Shown: positions 37,524 through 56,245 of the stretch, piece by piece | Layout: every line of letters starts with the position of its first letter | How positions within the stretch are numbered: position 1 is the first letter of the stretch | NCBI RefSeq assembly: GCF_900090315.1 | Contig: NZ_FMHZ01000002.1 | Coordinates: 3,264,501 to 3,328,500, forward strand | DNA: 64,000 bases | Source of the DNA: Micromonospora citrea | GTDB lineage: Bacteria; Actinomycetota; Actinomycetes; Mycobacteriales; Micromonosporaceae | Reading direction: 5' to 3' | Notes under the pieces: generated by a model | Database searches by the model: none | What the model saw: only the letters and a program-made list of their open reading frames with translations | What the model was told of the DNA's origin: nothing | Made by a program: the position numbers and the translations under genes

Positions 37524-38590
37524 TGGCCGGGCGGAGGGAGCCGGCGGAGGGCCCGGCGGACGACCTGTCCCTGCACGAGCTGATCGACGGCCCCACGGAG
37601 GTGCTGCCGGAGGAGACGCTGGCGGCGGTCCGCCGGCCGGGGCCGTCCGGCCACGACCTGAGCGTCGAGGAGACGCACGACCTCTCCGGGGCGGCCGACG
37701 AGGTGACGCGGGACCTGGCCGGGCACGCCGCGACGGGTGCCCGGGAGCGCGTGGAGCTGCCCCGGATGCCGGCGGCCGGTGCGCTGTACCGGCGGGCGCT
37801 GCTCGGCGCGCTGCCCGGTCTCGGCGGCGGTCGCCGGTCGGCCGACGTGCCGGCGGTGGAGCTTTCCGTCGCCGGGGCCGCCGTCGACCGGGCGCACCTG
37901 GCCGACTACGACCGGGTCTGCGGGTTCCGGCTCACCGACCAACTGCCGGCCACGTACCCGCACGTCATGGGGTTCCCGCTGGCCCTGCGGCTGATGACCG
38001 CGCCGGAGTTCCCGATCCCGCTGACCGGCGTGGTGCACGTCGGCAACCGGATCACCGTGCACCGCCCGGTCAGCGCCGACGAGACCCTCGACTTCCGCGC
38101 GTACGCGGAGCACCTGCGCCCGCACGACCGGGGGCGGCAGGTCGACGTGGTGCTCGTCGGCTCGGTGGACGGGGAGGAGGTCTGGCGGGGCGTCTCGACG
38201 TACCTCGGCCGGGAGCGCACGCCGGGCGGGGAGCGGCGGCGCGACCCGGGCGAGCGGCCCGCGGCGCCGGCCGGCTCCGCCCGCTGGCGGGTCGAGCCCC
38301 GCGTCGGCACGGACTACGCGCGGGTCTCCGGCGACCACAACCCGATCCACACCTCCCGCCTCGGCGCCCGGTTGTTCGGCTTCCCCCGGCCGATCGCGCA
38401 CGGGATGTGGAGCAAGGCCCGCTGCCTGGCCGCGCTGGAGAACCGGCTGCCCGACGCCTACACCGTCGAGGTGGCCTTCAAGCTGCCGGTGCCGCTGCCG
38501 GGCACGGTGAGTTTCGCGCGCCTGCCGGACGGCGGATTCGCCCTGCACGACCTGCGCGGTCGCCCGCACCTGGTGGGTCTCGTGCGCTGA
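37523..38590 (+). CDS. MaoC-like (R)-specific hydratase/dehydratase (HtdX-like)
   Basis: A 355-residue double-hotdog protein. The first hotdog (about residues 100-230) is ligand-shaping (YPHVMGFPLALRLMT, VVHVGNRITVHRPV). The second carries the catalytic hydratase motif YARVSGDHNPIHTS with Asp and His. An unusual 90-residue charged N-terminal region (DDLSLHELIDGPTEVLPEE) precedes them. The position after fabG4 and opposite thiolase matches mycobacterial htdX. Predicted role: (R)-3-hydroxyacyl thioester dehydration. Confidence 0.9.
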   Translation: MAGRREPAEGPADDLSLHELIDGPTEVLPEETLAAVRRPGPSGHDLSVEETHDLSGAADEVTRDLAGHAATGARERVELPRMPAAGALYRRALLGALPGLGGGRRSADVPAVELSVAGAAVDRAHLADYDRVCGFRLTDQLPATYPHVMGFPLALRLMTAPEFPIPLTGVVHVGNRITVHRPVSADETLDFRAYAEHLRPHDRGRQVDVVLVGSVDGEEVWRGVSTYLGRERTPGGERRRDPGERPAAPAGSARWRVEPRVGTDYARVSGDHNPIHTSRLGARLFGFPRPIAHGMWSKARCLAALENRLPDAYTVEVAFKLPVPLPGTVSFARLPDGGFALHDLRGRPHLVGLVR

Positions 38591-38633
38591 GCCGCCCCTG
38601 CCGATCCGGACACCGGGCTTGGCAGGGGCGGCT
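38590..38633 (+). terminator. Hairpin after htdX-like gene
   Basis: Thirteen-base perfect arms (38590-38602, 38621-38633) with an 18-nt loop begin at the stop codon. The right arm also holds the -35 of the next promoter. Confidence 0.7.
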
Positions 38634-38678
38634 TCGTGCGCTAGGTTCTTCTCAGATCGAGATGTTCTCAAGATGAGA
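38619..38678 (+). promoter_or_regulatory. Promoter and twin operator of the Nudix/PurA-like operon
   Basis: TTGGCA (38619-38624), 17 bp, TAGGTT (38642-38647) forms a good housekeeping-type promoter with its start near 38654. Two inverted repeats follow: TCTCAGATCGAGA (38650-38662) and TCTCAAGATGAGA (38666-38678), 16 bp apart. They straddle and follow the start site, the position of a repressor site. The adjacent NrtR-type gene is the natural candidate regulator. Confidence 0.55.
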
Positions 38679-38686
38679 GGGACGAC

Positions 38687-39439
38687 GTGGACGAGCGGGA
38701 GTTCCTGGCCGCGTACGACCCCCGGGCCTATCCGGCGGTCGCGGTCACCGTCGACGTGGTGGCGCTGACCATCCGGCACGGCGCGCTGCACCTGCTGCTG
38801 ATCCGGCGCGGCGAGCCCCCCTTCGAGGGGCACTGGGCGCTGCCCGGCGGCTTCGTCCGCCCCGCCGAGGACCTGCTCGCCGGCGCCCGGCGCGAGCTGG
38901 CCGAGGAGACCGGGCTCGGCGGGGAGGGGCTGCGCCGCGTACACCTGGAGCAGCTCGCCAGCTACGGCGACCCCGACCGCGACCCGCGGATGCGCGTCGT
39001 CTCGGTCGCCCACCTCGCGTTCGCGCCCGACCTGCCCGACCCGGCCGCCGGCAGCGACGCCGACGAGGCGGCCTGGCTGCCGGTGACCGGCCTGGCCAGC
39101 CGGCAGCTCGCCTTCGACCACGGCCGGATCATCGACGACGCGCTGGAGCGGGCCCGGTCCAAGCTGGAATACACCCCGCTCGCCACCCGCTTCCTCGCCG
39201 GCGAGTTCACCATCAGCGAGCTGCGCGCCGTCTACGAGACGGTCTGGGGGCACCCCCTGCACGCCGGCAACTTCCACCGCAAGGTGCTCTCCGTGCCCGG
39301 CTTCGTGGAGAGCACCGGCGCCAACACCGAGCGCGGCGGCGCGCGCGGCGGCCCCCGCGCCAGGCTCTACCGGGCCGGCGACGCCCGGCTGCTGCACCCG
39401 GCGCTGCTGCGCCCCGCGCGGGAGGAGACGGTGCGATGA
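38687..39439 (+). CDS. Nudix-domain transcriptional regulator (NrtR family)
   Basis: A 250-residue protein: N-terminal Nudix domain (residues about 18-150) and C-terminal winged helix (about 160-235, FTISELRAVYETVWGHPLHAGNFHRKVLS). NrtR-type regulators sense ADP-ribose or related nucleotides and repress NAD or sugar genes. The Nudix box GFVRPAEDLLAGARRELAEE fits Gx5Ex7REUxEE with all metal-binding glutamates, so hydrolysis may be retained, whereas many NrtR proteins have lost it. Two inverted repeats lie just upstream. Its stop overlaps the next start (ATGA at 39436). First gene of a five-gene operon. Confidence 0.85.
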   Translation: MDEREFLAAYDPRAYPAVAVTVDVVALTIRHGALHLLLIRRGEPPFEGHWALPGGFVRPAEDLLAGARRELAEETGLGGEGLRRVHLEQLASYGDPDRDPRMRVVSVAHLAFAPDLPDPAAGSDADEAAWLPVTGLASRQLAFDHGRIIDDALERARSKLEYTPLATRFLAGEFTISELRAVYETVWGHPLHAGNFHRKVLSVPGFVESTGANTERGGARGGPRARLYRAGDARLLHPALLRPAREETVR

Positions 39440-40410
39440 GGACCGCGGAGGCCATCCGCCTGGTCACGGCGGCCCGCAGCGACGCCGACCTGTTCGGCGC
39501 GGACCAGCCGGCCCGCCGCTACCGCGAGCTGGTCGCGGCCCTGCACCCCGACCGCCTGCCGGCCGACCCGGCCGTACGCGCCGAGGCCACCGACGCGTTC
39601 GTCCGGGTCACCACCCGCTGGAAGGCCCGCCGGGTCACCGTCCTCGGCGACTACCGCCTCGGCACGCCGGCCCACTCGGGTGACCTGGCCGACCTCTACG
39701 ACGTCGGCGCCGACCGCCTGCTCAAGCTGCCCCGGCGGCCCTCCGACAACGACCTGATGGCCCGCGAGGCGCACGCCCTGCACACCATCGCCGAGCGCGG
39801 CGACCCGCGCTACCTGCCGTACGTGCCCCGGCTGGTGGACTCGTTCCGGCACTCCGACGCCGCGACCGGCGCCGAACGGCGGATCAACGTGCTCGCCACC
39901 GCGCCCGGCCTGCACGACCTGACCGAGGTGCGGCGCGCGTACCCCGACGGGCTGGACGCCCGCGACGTCGCCTGGATGTGGCGGCGGCTGCTGGTCGCGC
40001 TCGGCCTGGCCCACCGGGCGGGCATCGTGCACGGCGCGGTCCTGCCGCCGCACGTGCTGATCCAGCCCGACCAGCACGGCGTGGTGCTCGTCGACTGGTG
40101 CTTCTCCGCGCCCGTCGGCAGCACCGTCCCCGCGCTGGTCCCCGGCCACGACGCACGGTGGTACCCCGACGAGATCCTCCGGAAGCGGCCCTGCGGGCCG
40201 GGCACCGACATCGCCATGGCCAGCGGATGCATGAGCTGGCTGATGGGGCCCCGCGCGCCGCGCGAGCTGGACGCCTTCGCGCGGGGCTGCCGCCAGCGGG
40301 CCCTGGGCGCCCGGCCCGACGACGCCTGGCGCCTGCTGCACGAACTGGACGAGGTGCTGGAACGGCTCTACGGGCCGCGCACCTTCCGACCCTTCACCCT
40401 CAACCCGTAA
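39436..40410 (+). CDS. J-domain-like / protein-pseudokinase fusion
   Basis: A 324-residue protein. Residues about 1-65 resemble a J-domain: helix, RYRELVAALHPDRLP with the HPD tripeptide, then a second helix. Residues about 75-320 look like a protein-kinase fold: a strand ending LLKLPRRPS (VAIK-type Lys), REAHAL (helix C Glu), HRAGIVHGAVLPPHVLI in the catalytic-loop position, and VLVDWCFS in place of DFG. The catalytic Asp (HRD/HGD) is Ala and the loop Asn is His, so phosphotransfer is unlikely. TDIAMASGCMSWLMG matches helix F. It overlaps the Nudix gene by 4 bp and ends 9 bp before the vWA gene. Confidence 0.7.
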   Translation: MRTAEAIRLVTAARSDADLFGADQPARRYRELVAALHPDRLPADPAVRAEATDAFVRVTTRWKARRVTVLGDYRLGTPAHSGDLADLYDVGADRLLKLPRRPSDNDLMAREAHALHTIAERGDPRYLPYVPRLVDSFRHSDAATGAERRINVLATAPGLHDLTEVRRAYPDGLDARDVAWMWRRLLVALGLAHRAGIVHGAVLPPHVLIQPDQHGVVLVDWCFSAPVGSTVPALVPGHDARWYPDEILRKRPCGPGTDIAMASGCMSWLMGPRAPRELDAFARGCRQRALGARPDDAWRLLHELDEVLERLYGPRTFRPFTLNP

Positions 40411-40419
40411 GGAGCTGTC

Positions 40420-41379
40420 ATGGGCAGTGGAATGTGGTCCACCGACGTGTACGACGCCGCCGACCGCTACCGCCGGAAGACCGGCAGGAGCGCGTTCTCG
40501 TACAGCGACAGCGGGGCGCGCACCGTGCACCCCTCGCTCGACCCCCGGGGCGTGGTACGCGAGAGCCGCGACTCCGACGAGCACCCCCGGTCGACGCCCA
40601 TCGCGGTGCTGTTCGACGTGACCGGCTCGATGCGCAACGTGCCACGCGTCCTGCAGACCAAGCTGCCGCGGCTGCTCGGGCTGCTGCAACGGCAGGGCTA
40701 CGCCAGCGACCCGCAGATCATGTTCGGCGCGATCGGCGACGCCACCTGCGACCGGGTGCCGTTGCAGGTGGGGCAGTTCGAGTCGGACAACCGGATGGAC
40801 GACGACCTCGGCCGCATCGTGCTGGAGGGCGGCGGCGGCGGACAGATGACCGAGTCGTACGAGCTGGCCATGTACTTCATGGCCCGACACACCGTGACCG
40901 ACGCCTGGGAGAGGCGCGGCCGGCGCGGCTACCTGTTCATCATCGGCGACGAGCTGGCGTACCCCCAGGTGAAGGCGCGCGAGGTGGCCCGCCTGATCGG
41001 CGACGGCCCGCGCGAGGACGTGCCGCTGCGGCAGGTCGTCGACGAGGTGACCCGCCGCTGGGACACCTACTACCTGCTCCCCGCCGGCAGCCACTACTCG
41101 GGCAACGCCAAGGTGCTGGACTTCTGGCGGAGCCTGCTCGGGCAGAACGCAGTCGTGCTGGACGATCTCGACGCGGTCTGCGAGACCATCGCGCTCACCA
41201 TCGGGCTCGGCGAGCAGGCCGTCGACCTGGACGAGGGCCTGCGCCACCTGGACCGGGCCGGCTCGAACGCCACCGGCACGGTGTCCAAGGCGCTGGCCCG
41301 GCTGGGCCGGGGGCGGCGCGCCGAGGTGTCGACGCTGCCCGCCTTCCGCGACACCGGCGGCGAGGTGACCCGGCTGTGA
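40420..41379 (+). CDS. von Willebrand factor A (vWA)-domain protein
   Basis: A 319-residue cytosolic protein. The vWA fold starts at PIAVLFDVTGSMRNV (about residue 65), whose DVTGS is the MIDAS metal motif (DxTxS variant). Further MIDAS-like acidic/Thr positions follow in GQMTESYELA and FIIGDELAYP. A helical C-terminal part (LDEGLRHLDRAGSNATG) may bind partners. Similar vWA proteins pair with kinases in TerY-type stress systems; here the partner would be the pseudokinase just upstream. Shine-Dalgarno GGAG precedes ATG 40420. Its stop overlaps the next GTG (GTGA at 41376). Confidence 0.82.
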   Translation: MGSGMWSTDVYDAADRYRRKTGRSAFSYSDSGARTVHPSLDPRGVVRESRDSDEHPRSTPIAVLFDVTGSMRNVPRVLQTKLPRLLGLLQRQGYASDPQIMFGAIGDATCDRVPLQVGQFESDNRMDDDLGRIVLEGGGGGQMTESYELAMYFMARHTVTDAWERRGRRGYLFIIGDELAYPQVKAREVARLIGDGPREDVPLRQVVDEVTRRWDTYYLLPAGSHYSGNAKVLDFWRSLLGQNAVVLDDLDAVCETIALTIGLGEQAVDLDEGLRHLDRAGSNATGTVSKALARLGRGRRAEVSTLPAFRDTGGEVTRL

Positions 41380-41480
41380 GGCACGAGGCGGTGGCCGACC
41401 CCGGCCACGACGGCTCCCGCAGCTCCCGCGGCCACGGCGGCCACGGCGGCTACGGCGGCTACGGCGGGGAGGCTCCGTGA
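41376..41480 (+). CDS. Small Gly/His/Tyr-rich peptide gene (34 residues)
   Basis: A 34-codon frame fitted exactly between the vWA and PurA-like genes. Its GTG start overlaps the vWA stop (GTGA 41376-41379) and its TGA overlaps the PurA-like GTG start (GTGA 41477-41480). The peptide begins MRHEAVADPGHDGSRSSRG and ends HGGHGGYGGYGGEAP. It is cationic/His-rich with no hydrophobic segment. Double 4-base overlaps are strong evidence for translation, though a chance frame in GC-rich sequence cannot be excluded. Function unknown: a metal-binding or regulatory peptide, a RiPP-like precursor, or merely a coupling leader. Confidence 0.55.
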   Translation: MRHEAVADPGHDGSRSSRGHGGHGGYGGYGGEAP

Positions 41481-42757
41481 GCGGGCACGTGGCGGTGGTC
41501 GACCTCGGCTACGGCGACGCCGGCAAGGGCACGGTCGTGGACTGGCTCTGCGCCACCCGGCCCGTGCACACGGTGGTCCGCTTCAACGGGGGCGCGCAGG
41601 CGGCGCACAACGTCGTGCTGCGCGACGGGCGGCACCACACGTTCGCGCAGTTCGGGGCCGGGACCTTCCACCCCGGCGTCCGTACGCACCTGTCGCGGCA
41701 CGTGGTGGTGGACCCGCTGGCGCTGGCCGCCGAGGCCGACCACCTCGCCTCCGTCGGGGTGCCCGACGCGCTCGACCGGCTGACGGTGGACGGGGAGGCG
41801 CTGCTCGCCACCCCGTACCACCGGGCCGCCAACCGGGCCCGGGAGATCGCCCGGGGAGCCGACCGGCACGGCTCCTGCGGGCTGGGGGTGGGCGAGACCA
41901 TGGCGTACGCGCTCGCCCACCCCGACGAAGCGCCCCGGGTGGCCGACTGCCTCCACCCGGCGCTGCTGCGCCGCCGGCTGGCAGCCCTGCGGGACCGGCT
42001 GACCGCCGAACTCGGCCCGCTGGACGCGCCGCCCGTCGACGACTGCCTGCCCGCGTTCACCGGGTTCGCCGGGCGGGTGGCGATCGTCGACCGGGGCTGG
42101 CTCGCCGGGGCGCTGCGCGCCGGCACCTGCGTCTTCGAGGGCGCACAGGGGGTGCTGCTCGACGAGTGGCACGGCTTCCACCCGTACACGACATGGAGCA
42201 CCACCACGTTCGCCAACGTCGACAGCCTGCTCGCCGAGGCGGGCCAGGCCGGCACTGCCACCCGGATCGGGGTGCTGCGCGTGGTCACCACCCGGCACGG
42301 CCCGGGCCCGCTGGTGACCGAGGACCCGGCTCTGCCGCTGACCGACCCGCACAACCCGACCAACCCGTGGCAGGGGCGCTTCCGGTTCGGCCACTTCGAC
42401 GCGGTCGCCCACCGGTACGCCCTCGCCGCCGCCGGCGGGGTCGACGGCCTGGCGCTGACCCACCTCGACCTCGCCGGCCCCGGGCTGCGGATCTGCCGCC
42501 GCTACGACTGGACCGACCGGCTCACCCCGGGCCCGCCCGGCGACCTGGACCGGCTGGCGGCGCTGACCGCCCGGCTGCTGCGCTCCCGCCCGGTCCACGA
42601 CGACGCCCCCGTCGACTGGCCGTCGGCGGTCGCCGAGGAACTGGCCACCCCGGTGGTGCTCACCTCGCACGGCCCCACCGCCGGAGACAAGGTCCCGAAC
42701 GGCCCGCTGCTCGCCCCGCCGACCCTGGTCGACGCCGGGCCCGGCAGGTCGGGCTGA
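41477..42757 (+). CDS. Divergent adenylosuccinate-synthetase (PurA) paralogue
   Basis: A 426-residue PurA-fold protein; canonical purA is at 54893. P-loop region GYGDAGKGTVVDWL keeps the catalytic Asp but has Ala for the next Glu. GGAQAAHNVV keeps the catalytic His of GGHNAGHT-type loops but replaces the IMP-contacting Asn with Gln. The IMP-phosphate segment [11 protein letters not shown] is GSCGLGVGETMAY here. The guanine-recognising TKLD is THLD, and the aspartate-binding [10 protein letters not shown] is GRFRFGHFD, one residue shorter. FEGAQGVLLD is retained. GTP-like hydrolysis chemistry may persist with altered substrates. Last gene of the Nudix operon. Confidence 0.85.
   Translation: MSGHVAVVDLGYGDAGKGTVVDWLCATRPVHTVVRFNGGAQAAHNVVLRDGRHHTFAQFGAGTFHPGVRTHLSRHVVVDPLALAAEADHLASVGVPDALDRLTVDGEALLATPYHRAANRAREIARGADRHGSCGLGVGETMAYALAHPDEAPRVADCLHPALLRRRLAALRDRLTAELGPLDAPPVDDCLPAFTGFAGRVAIVDRGWLAGALRAGTCVFEGAQGVLLDEWHGFHPYTTWSTTTFANVDSLLAEAGQAGTATRIGVLRVVTTRHGPGPLVTEDPALPLTDPHNPTNPWQGRFRFGHFDAVAHRYALAAAGGVDGLALTHLDLAGPGLRICRRYDWTDRLTPGPPGDLDRLAALTARLLRSRPVHDDAPVDWPSAVAEELATPVVLTSHGPTAGDKVPNGPLLAPPTLVDAGPGRSG

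Positions 42758-54892: not shown

Positions 54893-56245
<1,353 letters not shown>

Follow-up and report, generated by a model that had tools for sequence, protein, structure and literature searches.

The PurA family of adenylosuccinate synthetases has a described phage branch, PurZ, which carries Ser in place of Asp13 (PMC12884076). The 2026 survey reported there comprised 481 phage homologues, of which 147 were phage PurZ; the E. coli-type group had 246 prokaryotic members and 5 others. By our subtraction, and going by the available part of that paper, roughly 320 of the 481 would fall in neither group. Nudix-regulated operons with vWA proteins have been described as systems centred on an ADP-ribosylglycohydrolase (ARG) (PMC9503650). 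The kinase and the PurA-like gene appear in a list of genes that all C1 mycobacteriophages conserve, and the available text does not link them to each other (PMC9476963); the name "PurA-like adenylosuccinate synthetase" has also been used elsewhere (PMC11468179). Here we analyzed a 64,000-nucleotide stretch of the Micromonospora citrea genome (contig NZ_FMHZ01000002.1, positions 3,264,501 to 3,328,500; hereafter the window), which contains an operon ending in a divergent PurA, referred to below as PurA-like. The conserved unit consists of four genes, which code for a Nudix/NrtR-like repressor, a J-domain pseudokinase (J-kinase), a vWA protein with a metal ion-dependent adhesion site (MIDAS) and the divergent PurA. 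It is a real and widespread system built on a neofunctional PurA, and it is undescribed in the literature that we searched. No description of the gene set was found in open-access publications (subscription papers and bioRxiv preprints lay mostly outside the search), in keeping with an earlier reading of the window from its letters alone (the original prediction), which knew of no named system with this composition.

All frames of the operon are on the plus strand, with the Nudix gene first and the PurA-like gene last. The features are as follows, in window positions.

38619 to 38647, plus strand: promoter-like pair, TTGGCA (38619-38624) and TAGGTT (38642-38647) with 17 bp between them, assigned by conservation of the upstream region.
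38651 to 38677, plus strand: tandem operator CTCANNNNGAGNNNNNCTCANNNNGAG, predicted site of the Nudix/NrtR-like repressor, assigned by conservation.
38687 to 39439, plus strand: Nudix domain with NrtR winged helix (Pfam NUDIX and NrtR_WHD), predicted nucleotide-responsive autorepressor.
39436 to 40410, plus strand: fusion of a J-domain, whose HPD occupies residues 37-39, and a pseudokinase with Ala for the Asp of HRD.
40420 to 41379, plus strand: stand-alone vWA protein with a DVTGS MIDAS motif and an N-terminal MGx[GS]x[WYF] tail that is conserved.
41376 to 41480, plus strand: frame of 34 amino acids (aa), no separate gene; in relatives this place is taken by the PurA-like start or by an N-terminal extension of PurA-like, with which the frame is out of register here.
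41477 to 42757, plus strand: PurA-like, adenylosuccinate-synthetase family with rewritten substrate pockets (PF00709, residue census, phrog_1211).

We compared gene content around the vWA gene in two sets of 80 loci. The bacterial set, actinobacterial throughout to judge from record titles, holds the top matches out of at least 435 relatives, and the viral set those out of 280. Among the bacterial loci, PurA-like was detected in 79, Nudix in 78 and J-kinase in 74; all four genes were present in 72, and the order Nudix, J-kinase, vWA, PurA was likewise found in 72 of the 80. The viral loci contained PurA-like in 75 cases, J-kinase in 61 and Nudix in 2. The order was J-kinase, vWA, PurA in 53 of them and vWA, PurA in another 19, which together make 72 of 80. 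Wherever all three genes were detected they stood in the order J-kinase, vWA, PurA, except in three viral loci. Of the five viral loci in which PurA-like was not detected, two end within 15 bases of the vWA gene, and L152 carries a cut fragment. Independent searches of 121 genomes of the window's family found vWA in 62 and PurA-like (E value below 1e-55) in the identical 62. The linkage of vWA and PurA-like is far above chance, and the gene neighborhoods bear out the claim that the operon is one conserved system.

The family extends well beyond these loci. Of 8000 candidates in a protein search, 7829 scored as vWA relatives, and no Pfam domain was found on any of the 120 relatives listed. In annotated phage records, where some phages are listed twice, vWA was matched in 208 (189 Mycobacterium, 10 Rhizobium, 6 Vibrio and 3 others), J-kinase in 191 and PurA in 226, the last including other PurA relatives. 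Plasmid records numbered 21 for vWA (E value 1e-5) and 13 for PurA-like at a stricter 1e-40, so that these two counts are not comparable. Clustering for recurrent neighbors beyond the core gave mostly antisense shadow open reading frames (ORFs). A small Cys-rich protein was seen near the operon in 13 of 66 clustered bacterial loci (for example, L061:4827-5174).

The PurA-like protein matched Pfam PF00709 (E = 1.7e-58) and phrog_1211, and scored 147 bits against the NCBIfam adenylosuccinate synthase model, below its cut-off of 402. To place its residues, we aligned 163 PurA-like sequences in E. coli PurA numbering, with 27 canonical actinobacterial PurAs as a control (a usable frame was obtained in 27 of 30 fetched loci). 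The catalytic and P-loop residues were kept: Asp13, Lys16 and His41 in 163/163 sequences and Gln224 in 161/161 gap-free rows. On the nucleotide side, N38 was replaced by Gln (161/163), T129 by Cys (144/163) and V273 by His (161/161). The aspartate loop was altered at T300 (Trp, Phe or Tyr), T301 (Gln in 160/162), R303 (absent in 163/163) and R305 (Phe, Leu or others); K331 had become His or Cys, and R143 was mostly lost. All 27 control sequences keep N38, T129, R143, V273, T301, R303, R305 and K331. In the family, the same residues are retained in 2, 5, 4, 0, 1, 0, 0 and 0 of 163 sequences, respectively, the figure for R143 coming from a gappy stretch in which the alignment is less sure. R131 was left out of the evidence, since canonical PurAs themselves vary there (Arg in 19/27). 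From this division into kept and fixed-but-different residues, catalysis looks intact, and both substrate pockets appear to have been rewritten and then frozen. The census thereby supports the claim that an altered PurA predicts a different substrate.

The substrate roles of T301, R305, R143 and K331 are presumed from earlier work on E. coli PurA. For R303, an interaction with aspartate and with O2' of IMP (inosine monophosphate) has been described in the E. coli enzyme, and the PurZ loop Y272-L278 contacts aspartate (PMC8342488). By our own reading, that loop would correspond to the one altered in PurA-like, and the PurZ base-pocket residues N49, T132, Q190 and V241 to N38, T129, Q224 and V273 of PurA. 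None of the residue terms occurred in PMC6136348, which deals with the Helicobacter pylori enzyme.

By its residues, PurA-like is neither PurA nor PurZ. Ordinary PurA is ruled out by the eight residues fixed in 27/27 canonical sequences and kept in 0 to 5 of 163 homologues. The same eight positions count against a milder version, in which the enzyme converts IMP to adenylosuccinate, or performs a close salvage reaction, with aspartate held by other residues and the partner proteins acting only as regulators. Retention of Asp13, His41 and Gln224 fits such an enzyme, as does the family profile, which among structures lies nearest bacterial PurA (196 bits); the genome has a normal purA, however, encoded separately in the window at 54920-56170 on the minus strand, some 12 kb downstream from PurA-like. 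We regard this salvage role as unlikely. A PurZ-type enzyme for 2-aminoadenine DNA might be suspected from the phage distribution and from the PHROG label "2-aminooxy adenylosuccinate synthetase." Here Asp13, present in 163/163 sequences where phage PurZ has Ser (PMC12884076), rules PurZ out as an assignment; moreover, the PurZ model scored 35 against a cut-off of 300, and PurZ structures gave 29 to 43 bits compared with the 196 of PurA. The chance that PurA-like makes the 2-aminoadenine precursor is next to negligible. Lastly, the diverged substrate residues would suit a catalytically idle, nucleotide-sensing scaffold, which we hold to be very improbable given D13, K16 and H41, invariant across 163 diverse sequences.

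The first gene codes for a protein with Nudix (E = 4e-21) and NrtR_WHD (E = 3e-11) domains, both above the Pfam cut-off; the NCBIfam NrtR equivalog model gave 139 bits against a cut-off of 400. Upstream, both promoter boxes were recognizable in most aligned regions of related Micromonospora. Because a strict consensus scan gave no promoter, the promoter-like pair rests on this conservation. A tandem site, CTCAN4GAG-N5-CTCAN4GAG, follows the -10-like box and precedes the start of the Nudix gene. We scored it in 67 upstream regions (the window and those of L012-L091 with a strong plus-strand Nudix match and sufficient sequence). All 14 fixed positions were present in 53 of the 67 and at most one mismatch in 62, while none of the shuffled controls (20 per region) reached that level; the 67 rows are related to each other and do not represent 67 independent events. 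The 7.2-Mb genome holds a single exact copy of this tandem site, with one further site carrying a single mismatch elsewhere and two-mismatch sites at the level of the control pattern. These results support the claim that the regulator belongs to the operon, and suggest that the Nudix protein is a local autorepressor. Since the exact site is found once in the genome, its ligand probably belongs to the operon's own pathway. By analogy with NrtR (PMC9503650), this ligand may be of the ADP-ribose type. Apart from these elements, an inverted repeat at 38590-38633 (18-nt arms, 89% complementary) follows the upstream MaoC-domain gene and overlaps the -35-like box; it is possibly the terminator of that gene.

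The second gene gave weak Pfam matches, below cut-off, to kinase (0.0012) and DnaJ (0.075) domains, and its predicted model folds as a kinase. Across 58 sequences, HPD is conserved (H in 56, P in 53, D in 55), and the catalytic Asp of HRD is Ala in 50 and Asp in 1, which does not fit an active protein kinase. The call of a J-domain pseudokinase was thus supported. The third protein had no match to the Pfam vWA domain; its vWA fold was assigned from the predicted model, and DVTGS is a DxSxS-type MIDAS motif. In the Vibrio and Rhizobium phage stretches, J-kinase was not found, and unannotated proteins of 237 and 263 aa, similar to each other, stand upstream of vWA (L002:7217-7930 and L003:6777-7568). 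The vWA gene of phage Pinkcreek (L185:2465-4288) is interrupted by an in-frame stretch of some 255 residues, with Cys first and SSN-Cys last, just before the IFIGDE strand. The insertion has weak Hint/Intein Pfam matches, is absent from the vWA protein of Sebata and is likely an intein at the MIDAS site, which could explain the split vWA matches in phage records and the label "HNH endonuclease" in PMC9476963.

The N terminus of the vWA protein (window 40420-40437) is strongly conserved. Gly2 is present in 64/64 alignment rows, and MGx[GS]x[WYF] opens 119 of 120 listed database proteins. The tail lies ahead of the first helix, and the predicted local distance difference test (pLDDT) value of the first ten residues, 78, is of lower confidence; even so, conservation is higher in the first six columns (0.69) than over residues 7-40 (0.41). 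One explanation would make PurA-like a protein-nucleotide ligase and vWA its acceptor, the glycine tail, after removal of Met, entering the remodeled aspartate pocket and receiving the purine. Replacement of the aspartate-binding residues by Gln and Phe or Leu, and the inseparability of vWA and PurA-like, would agree with it. However, the conservation may be merely structural, a wider motif is found in 150 of 172 locus frames, and positions 3-5 vary. We consider this acceptor role quite improbable.

The core is carried by cluster C mycobacteriophages, among other phages, a side of the family that the original prediction had missed. In a tree of PurA-like (91 rows), a branch of 2.28, supported at 100/100, set the two canonical PurAs apart, and the bacterial copies were nested among viral ones in two main groups, the actinobacteria and alphaproteobacterial plasmids. 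The starred branches force at least three label changes for viral rows and at least two for bacterial rows, in a tree rooted at its midpoint and with a bootstrap that had not settled. Transfer from phage to bacterium is the simpler direction on these sequences. Among viral neighbors (159 of 204 selected ORFs were scanned with Pfam), the top families listed included HAD_SAK_2 five times, R2K_2 five times, 2H-SAK twice, and TROVE, NADAR, Tad3 and DUF4326 once each. Because there was no background set, the recurrence of RNA-repair and modification neighbors is a hint only. R2K enzymes, which are of the ATP-grasp type, have been proposed as peptide ligases in phage-host conflict (PMC4431377). Rhizobium phage RHph_TM30 has NAD-salvage-type genes by annotation next to its core, and both Sebata and Pinkcreek have a polynucleotide kinase nearby.

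These data bear on the suggestion, made in the original prediction, that the operon is an antiphage module. A bacterial antiphage or stress-conflict operon would resemble the ARG systems proposed to act against viral ADP-ribosylation, in which Nudix regulation and vWA proteins recur (PMC9503650); patchy presence (62 of 121 genomes) and plasmid copies would also fit. The operon proteins include no ADP-ribosylglycohydrolase, though, and PADLOC 2023 returned partial, weak matches for the kinase and Nudix proteins and none for vWA or PurA-like. In addition, phages carry the core themselves, cluster C mycobacteriophages included, and the flanking frames scanned in the window code for a MaoC-domain protein, two VTT-domain proteins, a histidine kinase and lipid-type enzymes. 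An antiphage function is distinctly unlikely, and we do not maintain that part of the claim.

As to chemistry, ligand and role, we give most weight, tentatively and short of even confidence, to the following explanation: the PurA-family enzyme couples a 6-oxopurine nucleotide with some amine that is not free aspartate, with the predicted J-domain pseudokinase and vWA protein holding or presenting the partner, under a predicted Nudix repressor freed by an ADP-ribose-like nucleotide. The Nudix/winged-helix protein would bind the tandem site, immediately after the -10-like box, and keep its own operon repressed until released by the nucleotide ligand. PurA-like would phosphorylate the purine 6-oxygen with GTP, like PurA, because Asp13, Lys16, His41, Gln224 and Asp333 are kept; its nucleophile would be something other than free L-aspartate because the aspartate loop lacks Thr301, Arg303 and Arg305. 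The J-domain may recruit host DnaK, and vWA may bind a peptide or an acidic group through the MIDAS metal and so assemble the enzyme or deliver the substrate. The core probably served large phages first, in some of them near RNA-repair and NAD/ADP-ribose genes, and bacteria would have acquired it at least twice. In short, we infer that phages carry a nucleotide ligase whose second substrate is new, and that bacteria have domesticated it and placed it under a local repressor.

Several points weigh against this explanation. The gene-content counts lean to close relatives, both sets of 80 loci being the best of larger numbers of matches. A phylum-wide search found vWA in 2 of 296 genomes, with 7 candidates scored per genome, and was possibly insensitive. 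Neither J-kinase nor Nudix can be essential to the core, because they were undetected in 19 and 78 of the 80 viral loci, respectively. The nucleotide itself may not be IMP, because N38, T129 and R143, the last in the less surely aligned stretch, have changed too; a novel mode of binding aspartate would also be compatible with the sequences. The regulon survey was confined to the whole tandem site. Finally, the regulator in the window has a strict Nudix box, as do 47 of 89 regulators, so that Nudix hydrolysis is not general.

A bolder version, which we rate as a long shot, is a phage-born machine in which PurA-like ligates a GTP-activated 6-oxopurine nucleotide to the free N-terminal glycine of vWA or of a client presented by vWA and the J-domain pseudokinase. 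The purine-protein conjugate would let large phages control host proteins, and the machine would later have been domesticated by actinobacteria under an ADP-ribose-sensing repressor. If the enzyme does join purines to a new partner, this would be a third reaction for the PurA/PurZ family, and it may account for the roughly 320 of 481 phage PurA relatives outside both groups in the available part of PMC12884076. It would also offer a testable phage-host nucleotide chemistry with a regulator, an operator and laboratory phages on Mycobacterium smegmatis mc2 155. Large phages, plasmids and bacterial chromosomes all carry the core, which has so far been labeled "hypothetical protein" or "adenylosuccinate synthetase."

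The original prediction had described five packed frames. Their coordinates and overlaps were confirmed: Nudix and J-kinase overlap by 4 bp, J-kinase and vWA are 9 bp apart, and the 34-aa frame overlaps its neighbors by 4 bp on both sides. The small peptide did not hold up as a gene. Among 31 relatives with a readable junction, the PurA-like start overlaps the vWA stop in 21; an overlapping GTG opens a low-complexity extension running in frame into PurA in 7; and PurA starts shortly downstream of vWA in 3. The PurA-like frame thus opens at an overlapping start in 28/31. The 34-aa frame begins at this same position, its VRHEAVADP resembles the PurA start VSGHVAVVDL, and it has no Pfam match. 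We rejected the peptide as a component, since relatives begin or extend PurA-like at this place, and read the frame as a probable leader or duplicated PurA-like start, out of frame with PurA, or as a sequence artefact. Other small ORFs at the equivalent place, Sebata gp262 (88 aa) and one in Vibrio phage phiKT1024 (60 aa), had no Pfam match either.

Compared with known systems, the operon shares its gene order with the cluster C mycobacteriophages (Sebata gp260-263 and Pinkcreek 240-243), which have the succession of kinase, vWA and PurA-like and a small ORF before PurA. The Nudix gene is not in the phage stretches seen, and the available records annotate the genes singly, without describing a system. 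The ARG-centred systems with Nudix or WYL regulators and vWA chaperones (PMC9503650) likewise combine a Nudix-HTH regulator and vWA in one operon. The four proteins here include neither ADP-ribosylglycohydrolase nor phosphatase, and have PurA-like as the core enzyme and a J-domain pseudokinase instead. NrtR regulators of NAD metabolism share the Nudix domain and NrtR winged helix, and the present regulator differs in that its exact tandem CTCAN4GAG operator is found only at its own operon and in its NCBIfam score (139 bits, well under the cut-off of 400). PurZ and PurZ0 of Z-DNA phages are alike in being phage-carried PurA relatives with a new substrate, which for PurA-like is a prediction; PurA-like keeps Asp13, has a profile far nearer bacterial PurA and is changed in the amino-acid pocket. 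PurA itself shares with PurA-like a family match over most of the length and Asp13, Lys16, His41, Gln224 and Asp333; PurA-like differs in the T301/R303/R305 loop, in the base and phosphate contacts N38, T129, R143 and V273 and in K331, and adjoins vWA in nearly all loci, in a genome with a separate purA.

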